This document shows positions 13,849 through 22,806 of a stretch of DNA of 64,000 nt, in pieces. The notes under the pieces were generated by a model, which worked only from the letters and a program-made list of their open reading frames with translations, searched no databases and had not been told where the DNA came from. The translations under genes were made by a program, and so were the position numbers. Numbering within the stretch: position 1 is the first letter of the stretch; every line of letters begins with the position of its first letter. The stretch comes from Phaeobacter sp. G2. GTDB taxonomy: Bacteria > Pseudomonadota > Alphaproteobacteria > Rhodobacterales > Rhodobacteraceae. Location: positions 2,480,001 to 2,544,000 of the forward strand of contig CP104100.1 of assembly GCA_025163595.1 (NCBI GenBank), given 5' to 3'.

Positions 13849-15048
13849 ATGGAAACCAAATCTGAAACCGTCGATACCATCCGCCGCCCTATCAGGGGAC
13901 CGCAAGCACCTCCAATGAAACAGATCAAACCCGCAGGTATGACGTCAGGCAGGCAGATCACATCCTCACCGACGGCAGTCGTCTATTGCGAGGGGAATTT
14001 CGCGCAAATCGATGGTAAGACGGCAAATGGCCTTGTCCGCCATTCACAAGCATATCGCATCCTCTCTGTCATCGACAGCACCTATAGAGGTCAAGACAGC
14101 GGAACCGTTCTCGACAATAAAATCAACCGCATACCGATTTTTGGTCTTCTGGATGCGGCAGTTGCCGATCAAGCCGTTATTCCCGATACGCTGATCTATG
14201 GAATGGCCCCCTCAACGGGGCGGCTCTCGCCCGCGGACCGGGACGTTATTCTGCACGCAATTGAGCTTGGCATGAACATCGTGAGCGGGCTGCATGAATA
14301 TTTGAGCGATGATATAGAATTTGCCAATGCGGCGTCAGTTCGAAATGTCACGATCCGCGACATCCGCAAGCCGAAACCCAGCAAGGACATGCGCCTGTTA
14401 GATGGCAGTGTCACTGGTGTCAAAGCGCTACGCATTGCAGTTCTTGGCACCGATTGCGCCATTGGAAAGCGGACAACGGCGACCGTTCTGGCGCGTGCTC
14501 TGAACGCGAAGGGTATCAAGACGGTGCTTGTCGGGACGGGCCAGACCGGCCTGATGCAGGGCGCGCGTTACGGTATCGCAATGGATGCCGTGCCGCCCCA
14601 GTTCTGTTGTGGCGAGCTTGAAGGCGCGATTGTTGCAGCTTCTGAAGCGGAACAACCCGATGTTATTTTGATCGAAGGCCAAGGCGCACTCAGCCATCCG
14701 GCGTTTTGCACATCTGCCTTTATTCTTCGTGGTAGCCAGCCGGATGCTGTCATCCTTCAGCATGCGCCCAAACGCGCGCATCGCTGTGACTTTCCCAATA
14801 TGCCGATGCCTACGTCGTCAAGTGAGATTGCCTTGATTGAAGCCTTTGCCGATACAAAGGTCATCGGTGTCACACTCAATCACGAGGGGATGTCTGAGGA
14901 CGAAATCACTGACACCATCGCGGCCCAATCACACAAACTCGGGCTACCAGTCACTGACGCATTGGCCAGGCCAGCTGCACATCTGGTTGCGATGGTAGTC
15001 GCCGCGTACCCCGGATTGACTCAAAGGCCGCCCGTGGCCGCGATATGA
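13849..15048 (+). CDS. DUF1611 P-loop protein (DgcN-like)
   Basis: 399 residues. An N-terminal Rossmann-like part (TAVVYCEGNFAQIDGKTANG, DTLIYGMAPSTGRLSPADRD) is followed by a P-loop domain with Walker A GTDCAIGKRT (about residue 203) and Walker B-like DVILIEGQGALSHPA. This is the DUF1611 layout; family members such as DgcN act in D-amino-acid conversion by N-acylation or deacylation, but the substrate here is unknown. An in-frame neighbour of the alanine-racemase family starts on its stop codon (ATGA), a pairing that suggests a D-amino-acid pathway. Confidence 0.8.
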   Translation: METKSETVDTIRRPIRGPQAPPMKQIKPAGMTSGRQITSSPTAVVYCEGNFAQIDGKTANGLVRHSQAYRILSVIDSTYRGQDSGTVLDNKINRIPIFGLLDAAVADQAVIPDTLIYGMAPSTGRLSPADRDVILHAIELGMNIVSGLHEYLSDDIEFANAASVRNVTIRDIRKPKPSKDMRLLDGSVTGVKALRIAVLGTDCAIGKRTTATVLARALNAKGIKTVLVGTGQTGLMQGARYGIAMDAVPPQFCCGELEGAIVAASEAEQPDVILIEGQGALSHPAFCTSAFILRGSQPDAVILQHAPKRAHRCDFPNMPMPTSSSEIALIEAFADTKVIGVTLNHEGMSEDEITDTIAAQSHKLGLPVTDALARPAAHLVAMVVAAYPGLTQRPPVAAI

Positions 15049-16165
15049 GCTACCCGCGCATCGAAGTGGACCTGGGCAAGATACGGCGCAACACGCAGAC
15101 ACTTGTCGAGCGTTTGGGCCCGCGTGGGATCGGCGTAACAGGCGTGACCAAAGCGATCTGCGGGCATCCTGCGATCGCTCAGGCCATGCTCGATGGTGGC
15201 GCTGCTGGGCTTGCAGATGCACGTATCAGCAATGTGCAAAGGCTACGTGCCGCAGGCATGACTGGCCCCATCACGCTGATCCGGACGCCGATGTTGAGCC
15301 AGGTTGATCAAGTCGTTCAATCCTGCGAAGCGAGTTATAATACCGAGCCTTTGATCATTTCGGCACTTGCCGCCGCCGCGATCCGTAAGGGTTCTGTGCA
15401 CGGTATCGTCCTCATGGTCGAAATGGGCGATCAGCGGGACGGAATATTACCCGAGAACTTGGCAGATGTTGCGCAGCTGGTCATGCAAGTACCCGGAGTC
15501 GCATTGAAAGGGATTGGTGCGAACTTTGCGTGCTTGAACGGGGGGCTCCTACGGCCTTTCAAATGGCGGCGCTGAGTGCTCTGTCCAACGGGATTGAGGG
15601 GGTTTGCGGCCCATTCCTAAGCATCGTATCTGGCGGCAACTCGGCCAACTTGCCTTGGGCACTTGGCGAACACTCTACCGGTCGCATCAACGACATACGA
15701 CTGGGTGAGGCGATCCTTCTGGGTGCTGAGCCAGTCTCAGGGGACCAGATCGACGGGATGCACACCGACGCCTTCACGCTTGTTGCCGAAGTTATCGAAA
15801 CGGATGCAAGACCCAAGCCTTTTCCGATTGCCCTAATAGATCCAACTGCTGAACGACTTTGCATTGTGACAACCGGAGGTGCCTCTGCTCGCATGATCCT
15901 CGCAATCGGACGTCAGGACACCGACATTCTGGGGCTTTCAATGCCTGTTGGATGCACATTGATCGGTGCAACCAGCGATCATCTTGTCATTGGAACGCCC
16001 GTCACCCCGCCGACGCTGGGTTCCGAGGTAAGATTCCAGATGAGTTACAATGCGTTGATGCGAGCCATGGCCGCGCCGGACATCAATGTAGAACTCATGG
16101 GTTATCCACCCAAACGACCATCACGGCACACCCAAGGCAAGGTCCAACACTTGGCGCTGGTTTGA
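15045..16165 (+). pseudogene. alanine/ornithine racemase-family PLP enzyme, frameshifted
   Basis: Fold-type III PLP enzyme. The N-terminal part has YPRIEVDLGKIRRNTQTLVE and the PLP lysine region TGVTKAICGHP. The C-terminal part has LSIVSGGNSANLPWALGE, GRINDIRLGEAILLGAEP and DGMHTDAFTLVAEVIE, a pattern of the YhfX/ornithine-racemase group. The two parts are in different frames; the break is at a run of six G at 15540-15545 (ANFACLNGG then APTAFQMAAL), and one extra G restores a single 373-residue protein. Either a young frameshift or a homopolymer error. If real, D-amino-acid formation is lost. Confidence 0.8.
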
Positions 16166-17289: not shown

Positions 17290-17339
17290 ATTCAAAATCC
17301 CACGCTGGTGACAGCGTGCCGGTTCGAGTCCGGCCTTGG
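17290..17339 (+). repeat. attachment-site repeat, right copy (partial tRNA-Leu)
   Basis: Matches 1254-1303 of the tRNA-Leu gene with one mismatch: anticodon loop, variable arm, T arm (GGTTCGAGTCC) and acceptor strand. The 5' half of a tRNA is absent, so it is a scar, not a gene. The sequence after it (hairpin GGCTTGC/GCAAGCC, then an integrase C terminus on the minus strand) repeats the arrangement that follows the intact tRNA, which indicates a second element joined here. Confidence 0.85.
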
Positions 17340-17436
17340 ATGCCATATTCTTCAATGGCTTGCGTTACTGAGTTAATGCAAGCCCTTGAGAAGCTCCTCA
17401 CAAGTTCCCCCTGCGGTTCCTCCATTCCCTTTTCGT

Positions 17437-17700
17437 TCACGTTCTGTCGTGTCGGCTTTGGGCCTGTTTTGAGAGGCTTCTCTGCGATGCACGCTGGCGA
17501 TACTTTTGAACCATGGCTAGAGTTTTGTGGCCTGTAACAGATTGAATTTCCGCATCGGAACAGCCTGCCTCCGCCAGTTCCACCGCAGCTGTGTATCTCC
17601 AGCCATGCATGACCAGGCCATTGCATATTGCTCCTGTTGCCGTTCTGATTTTACGAAACCGTTTTTCAATCGCGTCGTAACCAACTGGCATAGTTAGGTC
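17437..17700 (-). pseudogene. tyrosine integrase remnant B (C-terminal fragment)
   Basis: C-terminal catalytic end only: CKDLTMPVGYDAIEKRFRKI, then the HxxR box MHGWRYTA, AEAGCSDAEIQSVTGHKTLA and the tyrosine in VQKYRQRASQ. It aligns well with the C terminus of remnant A (1417-1683), so the two came from related elements that used the same tRNA. Everything upstream of about 17700 is unrelated, so the gene is truncated and cannot function. Confidence 0.85.
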
Positions 17701-18339
17701 TTTGCAAGAATATAGGCGCCGCGCCTGGGACCTCTGATAGGTGTTTGCGCAGGTGTTGCGGACAGTAGATCCAGATCCGGACATCCGTTTTGTCCTGGAT
17801 TACAGAAATCGATTCTCCGTCAAAGTGCTCCCATTTCATCGAGCACAGATCGCCCGGACTTTGCCCAGGTCCCGCACCAAGGGAGAAGGCGGTTGTAGGA
17901 GAACAAAGGGCGCATGGCCTTTAGTATTACGACCATAGATGTGCAGCGAATTTGCGCACCGAATGCAACCACAATGGGGCCCGCATGGAGAGGGACTAGG
18001 GCCCTGCCACGACGTCGCGCCTGAGACGCGCAAGGGAGGGTCAGGGCAGGCACATTACCGCCTGTCAGATCTAGTTCCAGCACCCCGCAAAACACGAAAA
18101 GGCCTCAGTGGCGAACGCTTGCGGACTGTGACGGTGGCTATGATTTGTCTGAGCCAGTTTCTGTCGATCCAGAAAACTGATCGCGGCGCTTACAGATCCT
18201 GAATTTGAGCGTTTTACGCGCACAGTGTAGCAATTTTCCAAGGCCGCAGCGAACGCATTTTTTGACCGCTACGTGCATGTAGATCCTGCCCACATATTGG
18301 GGGGGCTGCCCCCTGAGTCCTCCGGTTCTCCGGTTTGCC
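17701..18339. other. gene-poor region
   Basis: 640 bp without a supported gene. It includes a G-run/C-run stretch near 18299-18313. No further copy of the tRNA-Leu repeat was noticed here. Confidence 0.35.
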
Positions 18340-18651
18340 TTGACGCGTGATCGCTCTCACTTACCAAATACCTACGGCGAGCGGAACGCCTTCGCGGCCC
18401 GTTTCATCATTGCGAACAGTGATAGCGCCACTGTCGCTAAGCTATCCAAAAGTTGGGAAAATAGATTGACAGATTACACAATTTCGCTGGGAAACATCAT
18501 GCACGTGATTAGAAGCAGTCGCGTCGATTTTCCCTCCGCGGAACTCACAGCGCTTCAAGAGCAGTTCAGATACCAGTTGACGCGGTTTTCTTCCGAAAAG
18601 GGGAAAGATATTTTCCGCAGCGGAGGCTTCCAGCGCACAGGCAGCACTTGA
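18340..18651 (+). CDS. possible small protein, weak support
   Basis: 103 codons from a TTG (start uncertain). The central part (ATVAKLSKSWENRLTDYTIS ... TALQEQFRYQLTRFSSEKGK) looks like a helical protein, but no domain is recognised and there is no good ribosome site. It may be a fragment. It is listed because it is the only plausible ORF between the integrase remnant and the biosynthetic locus. Confidence 0.3.
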   Translation: MTRDRSHLPNTYGERNAFAARFIIANSDSATVAKLSKSWENRLTDYTISLGNIMHVIRSSRVDFPSAELTALQEQFRYQLTRFSSEKGKDIFRSGGFQRTGST

Positions 18652-18797
18652 TAGTACAACGGGTTACGCCGCATATATTGGTTCGGAGCAGCTAGGCCTA
18701 GCAGCGTTTAACCGCCCCTGGCTGCGGCTTCGTGAAAGTGCAAACTTCTCGAAAAACAGTATCATGTTTGTGAAAGTCATTTTATTAGGTACATATT

Positions 18798-19799
18798 ATG
18801 GAAATCCAGTTTGGAACAACCTTGTTCCCGAATGCAGATGATCTTCGGGAAACGATCACTCGATTATTCTGCAGGCTTGAGACCTCATTGTGGCACCTGC
18901 TGCTTGAGGTTTGGGACGCACCCGAAAACACAGCGAGAGCAGAAGAAAAATTCAAGCGTATTTTCTCCGATCACAGGCGCCCCGATAGCCTTGTGTTTGC
19001 CGCCCATGACGCGATGTTGAATGCAGCACTCGCGCAGGACGAACCCAGATTTGAACAGGCCTGCCTGCAATTCCTACAGCTCCCCGATCCGGTCCAGGCG
19101 ACCGGCCTCAGGGTACTCGGCCTGTCGGAAGAAGAGCTGGGACACGGTGCATGTAACCTTCTTCGTCGTGTGTTTCGTGATGATGTCGGGCTCACAGCCG
19201 ATCTGAGCGCTCCCGGCGCCGAGGAGAAGAAACACGCTGCTGCCAAGATCAAACTAGCGATAAACACGCTGGAACAGTACGCGCCCAATTGGGCCAAGGA
19301 GTTCGATCTCCTCGTGTCTCAGGTATACCTTGCCGTTAACCGGGACCCCAAGAAGAGCGGCTTTGGCGGCGCCACGGTCTTTGGGGCTTTTGGTTCCATC
19401 CTCGTGAACTCTGACAAGATTGATATTCTACCAACGGTTCTGATGACGCTGGTGCATGAAAGCTCTCATGCCAAGCTGTTCCTGTATCACCTGGATGACC
19501 CTGTCATCCTGAATGAAGATACTGAACTCTTCAGCTCTCCCCTCCGCTCCACGCCGCGCCCGATGGAGGGGATTTTCCATGCGGCCTGGGTCTCGGCACG
19601 CATGGTGCAATCTGCGAGGGCTATGCTCGAAAACGGCTTTAGCGGGCCGGATGCCGAAGAGCTCCGCCGCCAATGCAGGCAGGCGGTGATCATCTATCGG
19701 GATTGCGCTACTCAAGTTGAACGACATGCGCGTTTGACGCCGCTGGGACAACAGTTGTTTGATGATGCACAAAGGGCAATGTCAGATGCATGCTCCTGA
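18798..19799 (+). CDS. HExxH-family putative peptide/amino-acid modifying enzyme
   Basis: 333 residues. The key site is LVHESSHAKLFLYHL with H220-E-S-S-H224, followed about 25 residues later by ELFSSPLRSTPRPMEGIFHA. A HExxH helix followed by S-P-x-R-x-x-P-R-P-x-x-G is the signature I associate with the HEXXH-motif 'putative peptide modification' family (TIGR04267-type), members of which occur with RiPP precursors and are thought to act as iron-dependent hydroxylases rather than proteases. The N-terminal half is helical. The next gene, an adenylation enzyme, starts within its last codons, so the two are coupled. Whether the substrate is a peptide or a carrier-bound amino acid is open. Confidence 0.75.
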   Translation: MEIQFGTTLFPNADDLRETITRLFCRLETSLWHLLLEVWDAPENTARAEEKFKRIFSDHRRPDSLVFAAHDAMLNAALAQDEPRFEQACLQFLQLPDPVQATGLRVLGLSEEELGHGACNLLRRVFRDDVGLTADLSAPGAEEKKHAAAKIKLAINTLEQYAPNWAKEFDLLVSQVYLAVNRDPKKSGFGGATVFGAFGSILVNSDKIDILPTVLMTLVHESSHAKLFLYHLDDPVILNEDTELFSSPLRSTPRPMEGIFHAAWVSARMVQSARAMLENGFSGPDAEELRRQCRQAVIIYRDCATQVERHARLTPLGQQLFDDAQRAMSDACS

Positions 19800-21243
19800 A
19801 ACCATCGGCGCGGCCTTTCTGAAACAGGTCGAAACAAACCCAGGCACCATACTTTTCGAAACTCGGCGCGGAACAGGGCGCGGCTCCCTCACCTACGCAG
19901 ACTTCAAAATGCGCATCGAGTTGACGATGTTAGCTTTTGCCAGAAAAGGCGTTTCTGCTGGCCAGGTGGTAGGGCTTGCCAACACCAACCAGATTGACAC
20001 GTTCGCTGCAATTTTTGCGCTATGGGCATTGGGGGCGTCGCCTCTGGTGCTCGATTTCAGAAGCCCGCCTTCGGACATTTTGGAAAGGGCTGCGAGGTCG
20101 CGCGCTGTATGTATCTTTTCAGACTTTCGGAAGCTGACGCAGCACGAAGGGGTTCTGGAGGCTCCCAGGGGCGGGGAGGTGACTAAAACTTCGGGAGGGC
20201 TGATTTTTCCGGCCACGCCGCATGTCACCGCAGATTTCATTATGAGTTCTGGAACAACCGGGGTTCCGAAACTGCACCCTTTATCACATGAAGAGCTTTT
20301 GAGTGCCATTGACCGGATGGCCGTGGGCGGAGAAAGAGGCCATTGGGGAAATGCAGTGTCCTGTCTCAATCTCAGCTTTCCGGGAACGCGCTATATCTGG
20401 TTCCGCAACGCGGTCAGCGGGCGCAAGATCATCACTGTCCCGGTGTTCTTCGACTATGGGGAACTCGATGCGGCTCTCTTGCATGAGGATGCAGAAGAAG
20501 TCACTTTGCCGCCGGTATTGATCCGCGGTCTGGTCCAGCACATCAAGGCGCAAGGGGTGGTCGGGGACGGGCCGCGCTATGACAGGCTGGTCAAAATGCA
20601 GAGTATCGGCGGCCCGCTGCTAGGCGCGGTTCTGAAAGAAGCCAAGTCCATCCTGTCCGACAAGCTTTGCGTTACCTATTCTTCGACGCAAACGGGCATC
20701 ATATCCCGTCTGGAAGGGGATGCGATTGACAGCCATCCGACCTCCGTCGGAAAACCGCTTCCACATTATCATATCAGGATCGTCGATGACGAAGGCTGCC
20801 CACTGCCCAACAACCAGGTTGGCCATATTGAAGCGCAGGTCAATGGCAATGCGGCTCGGCCTGGTGATCGTGGCTACCTGGACGACGAAGGGTATCTCCA
20901 TGTTGTGGGGAGAGTTCAGGAGTACTTTTGCCGAAACGGCATTTCCTTCAACGCACCAGACCTCGAGCACCGGATCCAGGACGTTACCGGCGCGGCGCTT
21001 TGTTGCGTGATTTCTATCCCGAGCGAGGCCGGTGATGAAGATCAGATCGTTGCGGTCATCGAAGCCGAGCCAAGCCACATAAGCGAAGTCAAAACCCGAT
21101 TGAGAGCCCATCTGTCGCCGCTGACAAGGCCGGACAAAATCGTACTGATGCGGGTGCTTCCAAAGACATCTGGTCTCAAAATCGCAAGGGCACAGTTGGG
21201 TCAGATGATCGAAAAAACACCAGAGGTATGCCATGCCATTTGA
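19786..21243 (+). CDS. free-standing adenylation (ANL superfamily) enzyme
   Basis: About 485 residues. AMP-binding motifs are present: IMSSGTTGVPK (phosphate loop), YSSTQTG, PGDRGYLDDEGYLHVVGR (hinge and ribose-binding Asp) and a catalytic Lys in KTSGLKIARAQL. It should activate a carboxylic or amino acid as the adenylate and load it on the adjacent carrier protein; the substrate cannot be read by eye. The start at 19786 has AAAGGG upstream and overlaps the HExxH gene by 14 bp; an alternative ATG is at 19759. The 3' end overlaps the carrier gene by 11 bp. It lacks condensation or thioesterase domains. Confidence 0.88.
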   Translation: MHAPETIGAAFLKQVETNPGTILFETRRGTGRGSLTYADFKMRIELTMLAFARKGVSAGQVVGLANTNQIDTFAAIFALWALGASPLVLDFRSPPSDILERAARSRAVCIFSDFRKLTQHEGVLEAPRGGEVTKTSGGLIFPATPHVTADFIMSSGTTGVPKLHPLSHEELLSAIDRMAVGGERGHWGNAVSCLNLSFPGTRYIWFRNAVSGRKIITVPVFFDYGELDAALLHEDAEEVTLPPVLIRGLVQHIKAQGVVGDGPRYDRLVKMQSIGGPLLGAVLKEAKSILSDKLCVTYSSTQTGIISRLEGDAIDSHPTSVGKPLPHYHIRIVDDEGCPLPNNQVGHIEAQVNGNAARPGDRGYLDDEGYLHVVGRVQEYFCRNGISFNAPDLEHRIQDVTGAALCCVISIPSEAGDEDQIVAVIEAEPSHISEVKTRLRAHLSPLTRPDKIVLMRVLPKTSGLKIARAQLGQMIEKTPEVCHAI

Positions 21244-21469
21244 ACTGAGCACCTGCGTCGAAGACGCCTTTAAAACCTGCTTTCCCGATGCCGAGGTATC
21301 GCAGGACAGTGATTTTTTCGATCTAGGTGGGGATTCCCTGAAAGCGGTTGACCTGTGTCGTCTTATTGGAGGCCCCCTCGGCATGGAGGTTCATCCATCC
21401 ATTCTGTTTTCTCATTCCACCCCGGCAACGCTTACAGATGCTCTTCGGCGCGAATGCGGGTCCCTATGA
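21233..21469 (+). CDS. acyl/peptidyl carrier protein
   Basis: 78 residues, a single four-helix carrier domain. The phosphopantetheine site is DFFDLGGDSLKAVDL with attachment Ser35. It starts inside the end of the adenylation gene (ATG at 21233, stop of the enzyme at 21243), which argues that the two work as a pair. Its 3' end overlaps the convergent hydrolase gene by 38 bp. Confidence 0.9.
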   Translation: MPFELSTCVEDAFKTCFPDAEVSQDSDFFDLGGDSLKAVDLCRLIGGPLGMEVHPSILFSHSTPATLTDALRRECGSL

Positions 21470-22103
21470 AATTTTCGATGTTGGCGATGAGGTAGGGGAG
21501 GTTTTCAGCCTCGAAGTATTTGCCATGCCCACAGGGCAGGCTGGCTTGCTCATATACTGGAAACAGGTTTTCTACCCGCTGCTCGGTCATGCTCTGATCC
21601 TGCAGGAAGGGGTTTCGTTCCGGTGCCTCCGCGCCGAAATTGAGCAACGCCGGAACGGGTATTGTGTAGTCGGGAATGGCATCAATCGCGGCTACGGATT
21701 TTATGTCATGTCCAAGTTCCAGCAGGCGCCGTGCCAAACAGATTGCAAATGGCGCTCCTTGGCAATTTCCACCAACAACCGCAATCTCCTTGGGCAACAT
21801 GCCAGTCAAAGCGTCCGCAAGATGGTTCGCCATGTTGGCACCAATTTTATCCCGCTCAGGCGATGGTTTCATGATGAGGTTGAGAGAGCGAAGCGCAAAA
21901 AACGGCCGCTCCGGATCCAGTGCTGCATGGAATCTTGCAGGTTCGTGCGCCGCATTGAAGAACCATAGGATCGGCGCGAGAGATCCGGATGAATTCAGGT
22001 ACCTTACAACCCCTCGGGGACCGACGGCCCGGCCTGGCCAATTGTCGGACAAACGCGAAATCGAACGAAAAGTTTCGTCGATCTGTGTGTCTGAACTCAT
22101 CAT
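21432..22103 (-). CDS. thioesterase-like alpha/beta hydrolase with Cys nucleophile
   Basis: About 223 residues from the ATG pair at 22103/22100; the frame is open further up but would run through the peptide gene. The nucleophile elbow reads VVGGNCQGAPFA with Cys114 where most NRPS thioesterases have Ser. Downstream are an acid candidate in AAIDAIPDY and a His in LPCGHGKYFEAENLPYLIAN, the usual end of a type I/II thioesterase domain. It may release a carrier-bound product or transfer it to an amine, since Cys thioesterases favour acyl transfer. It converges on the carrier gene and follows the 32-residue peptide gene on the same strand. Confidence 0.75.
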   Translation of the reverse strand: MMSSDTQIDETFRSISRLSDNWPGRAVGPRGVVRYLNSSGSLAPILWFFNAAHEPARFHAALDPERPFFALRSLNLIMKPSPERDKIGANMANHLADALTGMLPKEIAVVGGNCQGAPFAICLARRLLELGHDIKSVAAIDAIPDYTIPVPALLNFGAEAPERNPFLQDQSMTEQRVENLFPVYEQASLPCGHGKYFEAENLPYLIANIENFIGTRIRAEEHL

Positions 22104-22150
22104 AAGGTTTCTTGTTTCTGCGATATTGTGGGCAAGGTCTACTGGTGCTT

Positions 22151-22180
22151 GCGGCGGCCCGATAGTTCGCAGGCCGCCGC
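22151..22180 (-). promoter_or_regulatory. hairpin between peptide gene and thioesterase gene
   Basis: Perfect 9-bp inverted repeat GCGGCGGCC / GGCCGCCGC with a 12-nt loop, located in the 112-bp gap between the peptide ORF and the hydrolase start. There is no T-run on the minus strand, so it may be an attenuator or an RNA-stabilising hairpin rather than a simple terminator. Such hairpins after a small precursor gene often keep precursor mRNA more abundant than enzyme mRNA. Confidence 0.5.
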
Positions 22181-22215
22181 TTTCTTCAGAATTCGGAATA
22201 TCGTGCCGGATTGGC

Positions 22216-22314
22216 TTAGAAGCCACTGCCCGGTGGGGCTGGTTCACCGACTTTCGGAGCGGCTGCTGCCTTGCTGCCCTTCAATGTCAGGATTTTATTG
22301 GGATCTAATTTCAT
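22216..22314 (-). CDS. 32-residue putative precursor peptide
   Basis: Small ORF with a good ribosome site (GAGGAAG, 7-8 nt before ATG). It reads MKLDPNKILTLKGSK, then a run of four Ala, Pro-Lys-Val-Gly-Glu, and ends PAPPGSGF. A charged/aliphatic N-terminal half (leader-like, ILTLK) and a Gly/Pro/Ala-rich C-terminal half ending in Phe are what a ribosomally made, modified peptide would look like. It lies upstream of the thioesterase on the same strand and in a locus with a HExxH modifying-enzyme homologue. No homologue is known to me; translation is inferred only from the ribosome site, codon sense and context. Confidence 0.55.
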   Translation of the reverse strand: MKLDPNKILTLKGSKAAAAPKVGEPAPPGSGF

Positions 22315-22806
22315 GGTAACTTCCTCTTTCAAAAGGTTTTGATCACACAAAGATATTCAGTGGGCTGTTTCAGCGGAGACAGACAAAACGTTTCAACTCG
22401 CCGTGTCAATGAGGTTTTCCTCTTATCAATAAGGGTCTCATATCGGCGCTGAAAAGCGCTGATATGAGGTAGCCTGTCGAGGCTAGTAGGGGTGCGATCG
22501 GGTGCTGCCTAATTGGCCTGTGCATAGATTGGCTTGCTGCATTATTGAAGTCCAAATTTATTTTAGTTGATGGAAACTTCTGCACACACCTTAGCGCCGG
22601 AAAAATCCTAAGTTATTCAAAAAACAATCACATTTTCAGCGTCAATGATTCCAACACCCACCTCTGAGCGGTCGCAATTCGCGCCAAAAGATACTCTACT
22701 GAATTGCCCATTGGTAGCACTGTGGACGGTGCGCGATACTACAATCGCCGACGATCCGTGAACAATCACCAGCAGCCGAGAACGGTGCGCGGCTTTTATG
22801 ATCTGT
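22315..22806. other. intergenic region upstream of the peptide gene
   Basis: 490 bp without a supported gene. It should contain the promoter for the minus-strand peptide/thioesterase unit, and it separates the acquired locus from the core mtnA region. It contains the inverted repeat at 22437-22468. Confidence 0.45.
22437..22468. repeat. 32-bp near-perfect inverted repeat
   Basis: CTCATATC-g-GCGCT-gaaa-AGCGC-t-GATATGAG: two 8-bp and two 5-bp arms match, with one G/T mismatch. A smaller palindrome CTTATCAATAAG lies just to its left (22423-22434). It sits 120-150 bp upstream of the peptide gene, so an operator or RNA hairpin is possible; no T-tract follows on either strand. Confidence 0.5.

Follow-up and report, generated by a model that had tools for sequence, protein, structure and literature searches.

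A conserved five-gene cassette joins a HExxH enzyme, a carrier-protein module and a short peptide gene in Rhodobacter-like bacteria

A locus with elements of two biosynthetic logics

The logic of ribosomally synthesised and post-translationally modified peptides (RiPPs) and that of non-ribosomal peptide synthetases (NRPSs) are usually separate, and a locus with elements of both raises the question of what the two could do together. We studied such a locus in Phaeobacter sp. G2, at positions 18,798-22,314 of a stretch of 64,000 nucleotides (contig CP104100.1, positions 2,480,001 to 2,544,000; hereafter the window) from a genome of 4.96 Mb. It contains five open reading frames, for a HExxH enzyme (HEX), an adenylation enzyme (A), a carrier protein (PCP), a thioesterase-fold protein (TE) and a peptide of 32 residues. 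This compact union recurs across 18 species, and its peptide is under purifying selection. We tentatively read it as a small pathway of RiPP type that has recruited a loading module of NRPS type and transfers an acyl group to the peptide, a reading to which we give a probability of roughly 0.45.

All five reading frames were recovered where a preliminary description, made from the sequence alone, had placed them. HEX, A and PCP are encoded by plus-strand genes that overlap end to start and converge on the minus-strand genes of TE and the peptide. The features of the locus are the following (the strand does not apply to the last one):

18798..19799, plus strand: HEX, aKG-HExxH-type peptide beta-hydroxylase, 333 aa (TIGR04267, motifs, model)
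19786..21243, plus strand: A, free-standing adenylation enzyme (PF00501, 8.2e-32)
21233..21469, plus strand: PCP, carrier protein of 78 aa with an LGGDSL phosphopantetheine site (PF00550, 2.3e-12)
21432..22103, minus strand: TE, thioesterase/acyltransferase-fold protein with a Cys nucleophile (GGNCQG elbow, GHGKYF His, model)
22216..22314, minus strand: precursor peptide of 32 aa, MKLDPNKILTLKGSKAAAAPKVGEPAPPGSGF (homologues, ratio of nonsynonymous to synonymous changes [dN/dS])
22151..22180, minus strand: RNA hairpin between the peptide and TE genes (shuffle test)
18636..22420: DNA homology block common to two other genomes of the genus (blastn; flanks differ)

The hairpin, already proposed in the preliminary description, folds as well in only 1 of 200 shuffled sequences (z -2.8). 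The longest TE frame, from GTG 22247, would extend into the peptide gene, but most relatives begin near the ATG at 22103 of the window, and we therefore took TE and the peptide as separate genes.

The five genes stay together

We used an alignment of 35 HEX proteins, the window's included, for a pattern scan of 84,980 species, each represented by one genome; it yielded 21 loci. We compared these with the window and one further locus (L036), and took as the main set the 18 loci in which HEX scores at least 246 bits. A, PCP and TE are present in 18/18 of them, and the peptide in 17, the exception being L019, whose contig ends inside the TE gene and cuts it (17/17 evaluable loci). A 19th locus (L102), from a genome of the window's genus (G675), has HEX, PCP, TE, the peptide and a shortened A; it stands outside the 18 loci, the tree and the A and TE alignments. 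One of the 19 loci (L015, uncultured Pseudophaeobacter) encodes the closest public relative of HEX (98% identical) and belongs to the window's own species by the grouping of the genome set (G684), hence the 18 species. The preliminary description had made it the main test whether these genes remain together in other genomes, and they do: the A-PCP-TE module accompanies HEX in 19/19 loci (with A shortened in one), and one to three homologous peptides in 18/19.

This association persists in different arrangements. Most commonly, HEX-A-PCP face TE, with the peptide on either strand. In two loci PCP lies upstream of TE (L026 and L027), and in four the order is TE-peptide(s)-HEX-A-PCP in one direction (L028, L029, L033 and L036). 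Outside the cassette, a neighbouring gene family is shared by at most 4 of 22 loci compared. We omitted copies of longer loci and flank loci (L001-L014, L037-L048, L068-L075, L083-L097 and L104-L120), as well as L034, from the counts.

Elsewhere the module is rare. It was found in 1 of 34 other HExxH loci (L030-L032, L035, L054, L055, L060-L067, L076-L082 and L121-L133), namely in L054, as a single A-PCP-TE protein of 841 aa. Beyond the family, no A-carrier-TE set was found in 7 loci from 385 genomes of the class, nor in 13 further loci from 398 genomes of the phylum (two of these 13 come from genomes of the family), as judged by profiles of the cassette's own proteins, which could miss a remote module. 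Two loci have A-like matches alone (L063 and L129). In L129-L133, HEX is recognised by TIGR04267 only, with no match by the cassette HEX profile, and L133 falls below the TIGR04267 cut-off.

The tree of 38 HEX proteins groups the 18 that bear the module in one clade (99/98 support; 100% of 200 bootstrap trees). HEX, A and TE have correlated distances (r 0.87, 0.79 and 0.89; none of 5000 permutations reached such values; n = 17); the A and TE of L036 were left out of the A and TE alignments, and the partial TE of L019 out of the latter. L054 (genome G120), where HEX and the fused protein accompany a 69-aa peptide with two LGRLFSKRG units, may be a distant or a separately arisen counterpart of the cassette. 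An origin of its own for the link between HEX and the module is unproven there: the tree places L054 outside the clade, and a single clade is not rejected (approximately unbiased test, p 0.318).

At L018, L022, L023 and L024, one gene family adjoins the cassette. The copy at L024 matches PF13640, a 2OG-Fe(II) oxygenase family, and such a neighbour is possibly a second hydroxylase of the peptide.

The peptide is conserved and goes with HEX

The peptide gene is under purifying selection. Its dN/dS is 0.10 relative to both L016 and L017 (dS 0.87 and 1.14), and ranges from 0.09 to 0.31 over six pairs of four sequences, where the top value rests on two changes. Because of this selection, and of homologues in all evaluable loci, we rejected a chance reading frame. 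Column-shuffled hidden Markov models (HMMs) of 21 cassette peptides gave no matches at E < 0.01 in 20/20 trials.

These 21 peptides, aligned from 16 loci (those of L015 and L102 stand outside), have a conserved N-terminal half and a variable tail. All of them have K7, L9, L11 and K21, and at least 90% have M1, G23 and P25. The last residue is F, A, N, K, D, S, V, G, T, Q or R, and 8 to 33 residues follow the conserved K-V/I/A-G/S of the (last) unit, leaving out a tail of 4 in L036 that reflects a second, chance match to the motif. Two or three peptides occur in each of L018, L027, L029 and L036, and L022 has one peptide with a repeated unit.

Leader-type peptides (LDxSKLLGFRL) also adjoin many HEX genes without the module. 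We compared the cassette peptides with 21 other HEX-linked peptides from 15 loci, including L054 with its fused module (candidates of L077, L078 and L080 were excluded). The motif K[VI]G occurs in 19/21 cassette peptides and 16/21 others, and in 66 of the 4321 small reading frames of the same loci, a background that includes the HEX-linked peptides themselves and in which 22 of the 66 have a leader-like motif. The tails differ: K-x-G-x-K repeats are absent from the cassette peptides (0/21) and frequent in the others (17/21), whereas (E/A/V/P/D)P follows shortly after K-x-G/S in 21/21 cassette peptides and in 2/21 others. Where a related TE occurs without HEX, no such peptide was found (0/9 loci at E 0.3). 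By these counts, the presence of the peptide follows that of HEX, and the EP stretch follows the module. The cassette has a conserved precursor beside a modifying enzyme, as RiPP pathways do.

Upstream of the peptide gene, at 22437-22468, an imperfect inverted repeat was seen by eye (14-bp arms, one mismatch, 4-base loop). It is absent from the output of the repeat finder, and could be an operator. Scans of promoters and terminators gave no clear excess over shuffled sequences (4 vs 3.2 and 3 vs 6.0).

HEX is related to peptide hydroxylases

HEX scores 83.2 bits against the NCBIfam model TIGR04267 ('aKG-HExxH-type peptide beta-hydroxylase', cut-off 40), in agreement with the peptide-modification family named in the preliminary description; all six relatives scanned also exceed the cut-off. 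A Pfam search of HEX gave no match. The metal-site motif is H220-E221-S-S-H224 (SPLRSTPRPMEGIFHA), and these three residues (H220, E221 and H224), together with R250, R254 and H261, are invariant in 35/35 aligned sequences. At E <= 0.001, the AlphaFold2 model (predicted local distance difference test [pLDDT] 92.5) gives five matches in the PDB, namely 22ob (SjiH) and four chains of 8s5f, which is the ChlB HExxH domain; the sequence profile of HEX matches 8s5f and 22nu/22ob. HEX and the ChlB domain have the same fold (template modelling score about 0.7). HEX thus resembles the HExxH hydroxylases of RiPPs that depend on alpha-ketoglutarate (aKG), i.e., the ChlB domain, PflC/PosC, PesO and BpmH, in its TIGR04267 match, its HExxH and SPxRxxxRP motifs and its nearby precursor gene.

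Published aKG-HExxH enzymes hydroxylate Asp, His, Gln, Phe and Pro residues of RiPP precursors, and one type also cuts the backbone (PMC12636437, PMC13060819). By analogy with these enzymes, HEX likely acts on the cassette peptide, with hydroxylation as the predicted reaction. The preliminary description had proposed instead that HEX hydroxylates an amino acid tethered to the carrier. We regard the peptide as the likelier substrate because leader-type peptides adjoin HExxH genes also where no carrier or A domain was found.

A, PCP and TE form a putative loading module

The features of an NRPS module are kept in A and PCP: the carrier, found in the 18 main loci and in G675, has its GGDSL site, and A its C-terminal Lys (K465, invariant in 17/17 aligned sequences), the exception being the A of G675. 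In amino-acid adenylation domains, the Asp of the A4 motif binds the alpha-amino group. The corresponding column of the cassette enzymes (PPPPGGSGGGGGPGSSS over the 17 aligned sequences), which aligns with the FD of LgrA, holds P, G or S in 17/17, including the sequence of the window. This makes a plain alpha-amino acid doubtful as the substrate, and A likely activates another kind of carboxylic acid, judging from these residues; the preliminary description had called it an amino-acid activating enzyme, which the replaced Asp speaks against.

TE matches PF00975 weakly (18 bits, below the cut-off of 26.4). Its AlphaFold2 model (pLDDT 93.3) finds among its best PDB matches the NRPS thioesterases Vlm2, SulM and NocB, beside other alpha/beta-hydrolases. 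Cys114 and His193 are invariant in 16/16 aligned sequences, and the Cys nucleophile noted in the preliminary description is borne out. TE shares its fold and the Cys in the nucleophile elbow with Cys-nucleophile NRPS thioesterases, such as that of SulM. Unlike them, it is a separate protein tied to a ribosomal peptide and, in the window, encoded on the strand opposite to the carrier. Relatives with the GGNCQ motif, which include NRPS-like proteins from the same bacterial family, lie at the end of NRPS-like frames of about 840-1320 aa or are free-standing. Among 295 genomes of the family, TE matches above 200 bits occur in four, each beside HEX, with at most 7 candidates scored per genome.

Two observations concern individual TE relatives. 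At L020 (G249 contig 6, 173671-174342), one TGA was counted inside the TE match; the open frame has 221 aa, and the match seems to run past the end of the gene. In the window's genome, L049 (G000 contig 6, from 73445 on) has a TE relative beside an AMP-binding protein, a carrier, a carbamoyltransferase and a protein of 728 aa whose final part includes a P450-like stretch. Neither HEX nor the peptide is present in this further small thiotemplate cluster.

A proposed pathway and its alternatives

The co-conservation of the genes, the selection on the peptide, the rarity of the module elsewhere and the absence of the peptide where HEX is missing lead us to a RiPP-type pathway with a recruited NRPS-type module. 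We infer the following steps. The short peptide would be the substrate, with its N-terminal half (LDxxKLLxL) as a leader for HEX, which would hydroxylate it at or next to K-(V/I)-G using aKG, iron and O2. In parallel, A would load the carrier with an activated carboxylic acid, which is probably something other than a plain alpha-amino acid. TE would accept the acyl group on its Cys and hand it on to the peptide, with the Lys21 side chain, invariant in the alignment, or the newly formed hydroxyl as acceptor; the (E/A)P stretch after KVG may serve this step. A protease and an exporter, if any, would be encoded elsewhere; neither was found among the five cassette proteins. If so, the cassette would represent a new hybrid class of natural products, made by thiotemplate acylation of a RiPP, in which A, the carrier and a Cys transferase put a non-amino carboxylic acid on a HExxH-hydroxylated ribosomal peptide, drawn from precursors with KVG-(E/A)P.

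CmaE and SyrC use a Cys to transfer aminoacyl groups bound to carriers, and TE, which has an alpha/beta-hydrolase fold, a Cys and a separate carrier, may be a shuttle of this type. PMC8748450 describes CmaE as shuttling from carrier to carrier and as having homologues in syringomycin biosynthesis. With CmaE as an analogue, the presence of a carrier and of a Cys enzyme of hydrolase fold suggests acyl transfer, which we favour over thioester cyclisation, oxidation of a carrier-bound acid, use of the peptide as a scaffold and mere neighbourhood.

Cyclisation would require that the peptide itself become a carrier-bound thioester, which the Cys of TE would release, e.g., onto Lys21 or a hydroxyl. 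An A without the Asp that binds alpha-amino groups fits this scheme, as do the fusion of A, carrier and TE in that order in L054 and the nearest TE folds, since the thioesterases of Vlm2, SulM and NocB cyclise or release peptides. Yet the peptide ends are not conserved, in either their last residue or the distance from K-V/I/A-G/S, and we consider this scheme unlikely.

Oxidation of a carrier-bound acid seems to us improbable to a similar degree. The SyrB1-SyrB2-SyrC and CmaA-CmaB-CmaE systems comprise an A domain, a carrier, an aKG-dependent iron enzyme and a separate acyl-shuttling enzyme, and the predicted activities of the cassette are comparable; HEX would oxidise a small acid on the carrier, the Cys enzyme would release or shuttle it, and the peptide would be a helper or a separate product, close to the model of the preliminary description. 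These systems differ from the cassette in their amino-acid A domain, in the type of iron enzyme and in lacking a ribosomal peptide. The leader-type peptides beside HExxH genes without carrier or A domain argue against such a scheme, as does the dN/dS of about 0.1 of the peptide. The members of the HExxH family studied in PMC12636437 and PMC13060819 act on peptides.

The peptide could also be a scaffold. In PEARL systems, residues are added to a scaffold peptide, modified and cleaved off, here as a small metabolite; this would give A and the carrier a use, and suits a short peptide with no exporter or protease among the five genes. With no lantibiotic dehydratase-like enzyme among the five proteins, and peptide ends that are not conserved, we think it very unlikely. 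Least probable of all, if by little, are two adjoining but unlinked pathways inherited together, for although HEX with its peptide and NRPS-like A-PCP-TE proteins each exist alone, the linkage holds in 18/18 loci (19 with G675) through varied gene orders and surroundings, and the peptide tail differs with the presence of the module.

Several observations weigh against acyl transfer to a HEX-modified peptide or weaken its details. In G675, about 58 codons are missing in frame from the C-terminal end of the A gene, that of the catalytic Lys among them, and the other four genes are present; A may be dispensable there, or this copy of the cassette may be decaying. L034 holds only fragments of HEX, with no partner. 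Other relatives of TE mostly occur within NRPS-like proteins, which makes plain hydrolytic release possible, and the acceptor could be the Lys, a hydroxyl or the C-terminus. The peptide motifs were picked after inspection of the sequences, and a looser one (any P 1-4 residues after K-x-G/S) occurs in 21/21 cassette peptides and in 8/21 others, these 8 from module-free loci and in one case from the fused module. Finally, common descent of the cassette peptides and the module-free HEX-linked peptides is likely from their similarity, if weakly supported without iteration: on 29,155 candidate starts, the cassette-peptide HMM gave the best module-free peptide an E of 1.8e-4, the next 0.027 and the others at least 0.46.

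Relation to known systems

A combination of HExxH enzyme, A, carrier, TE and ribosomal peptide is not described among the matches listed from a library of 5.39 million open-access papers, in line with the preliminary description, which knew of no such pathway. The parts are known; their union and the precursor family appear to be new. In PMC12636437 and PMC13060819, HExxH enzymes are accompanied by radical SAM, MNIO, nitroreductase, GNAT or asparagine-synthetase-like enzymes, in place of the A, carrier and Cys TE of the cassette. The cassette precursors (28-63 aa, with the K-(V/I)-G motif) are likewise unlike the HExxH RiPP precursors presented there. In RiPPs of the ChlB type, a radical SAM enzyme is fused or adjacent to the HExxH domain, whereas we found no radical SAM domain in the five cassette proteins or in ten nearby reading frames scanned. 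Nor is there a lanthipeptide enzyme among the five proteins, as the preliminary description had observed.

The systems closest to the proposed product are the selidamides, such as phaeornamide from Pseudophaeobacter arcticus, and the nostolysamides. In PMC9505594 and PMC13060382, Lys or (hydroxy)Orn of ribosomal peptides is acylated by GNAT enzymes, and the phaeornamide cluster has an aKG hydroxylase. These systems differ from the cassette in having GNAT acyl transfer (from acyl-CoA in vitro for NpuN) and a lanthipeptide synthetase, neither of which is among the five cassette proteins; the searches gave no GNAT match in them (for A, among the best 25 of 93 families).

If our reading is true, the cassette would be a compact means of attaching an activated acid to a gene-encoded peptide, and would open a direct approach to the question of how carrier-protein modules are recruited to ribosomal peptides. 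Its occurrence in various Rhodobacter-like bacteria suggests that ribosomal peptides are modified with an activated acid in a way that is as yet unstudied. The K-(V/I)-G peptides also provide a precursor family for aKG-HExxH enzymes, whose reactions, in the words of one report, 'at present cannot be predicted' (PMC13060819).

Spread and genomic surroundings

HEX relatives occur in 12/295 genomes of the family, 8/385 of the class and 4/12 of the genus (two of the four being one species), each count including the window's genome. By blastn, G676 shares the block 18636-22420, and G675 the block 18666-22418 with a gap in the A gene, both with other flanks. The same block in different flanks suggests that the cassette changes place or is often gained and lost.

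We saw no sign of plasmid or phage cargo in plasmid and viral collections. Among 72,556 plasmid records, HEX has three partial matches (32-34% of the query) and no close relative, and TE has four matches, to an amino acid adenylation domain protein, an AMP-binding protein and, twice, an NRPS. In the viral collection, none of 47 candidate stretches is related. PHROGs (3 proteins) and PADLOC (4 proteins) gave no matches.

The preliminary description had linked possible transfer to an integrase remnant nearby. The remnant is real (a C-terminal fragment at 17437-17784, PF00589), and the patchy presence of HEX in the genus and its other surroundings in two genomes agree with transfer, but the integrase seemingly belongs to a separate island. 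A tRNA-Leu(caa) at 1224-1352 is partly repeated (1254-1352 against 17290-17388, 84% over 99 bp); the remnant and this repeat perhaps mark the edge of an island of about 16 kb (about 1.2-17.4 kb) that ends to the left of the cassette. At 15045-16165, the gene after a DUF1611 protein appears to be split over two overlapping frames (15045-15575 and 15530-16165), perhaps by a frameshift.

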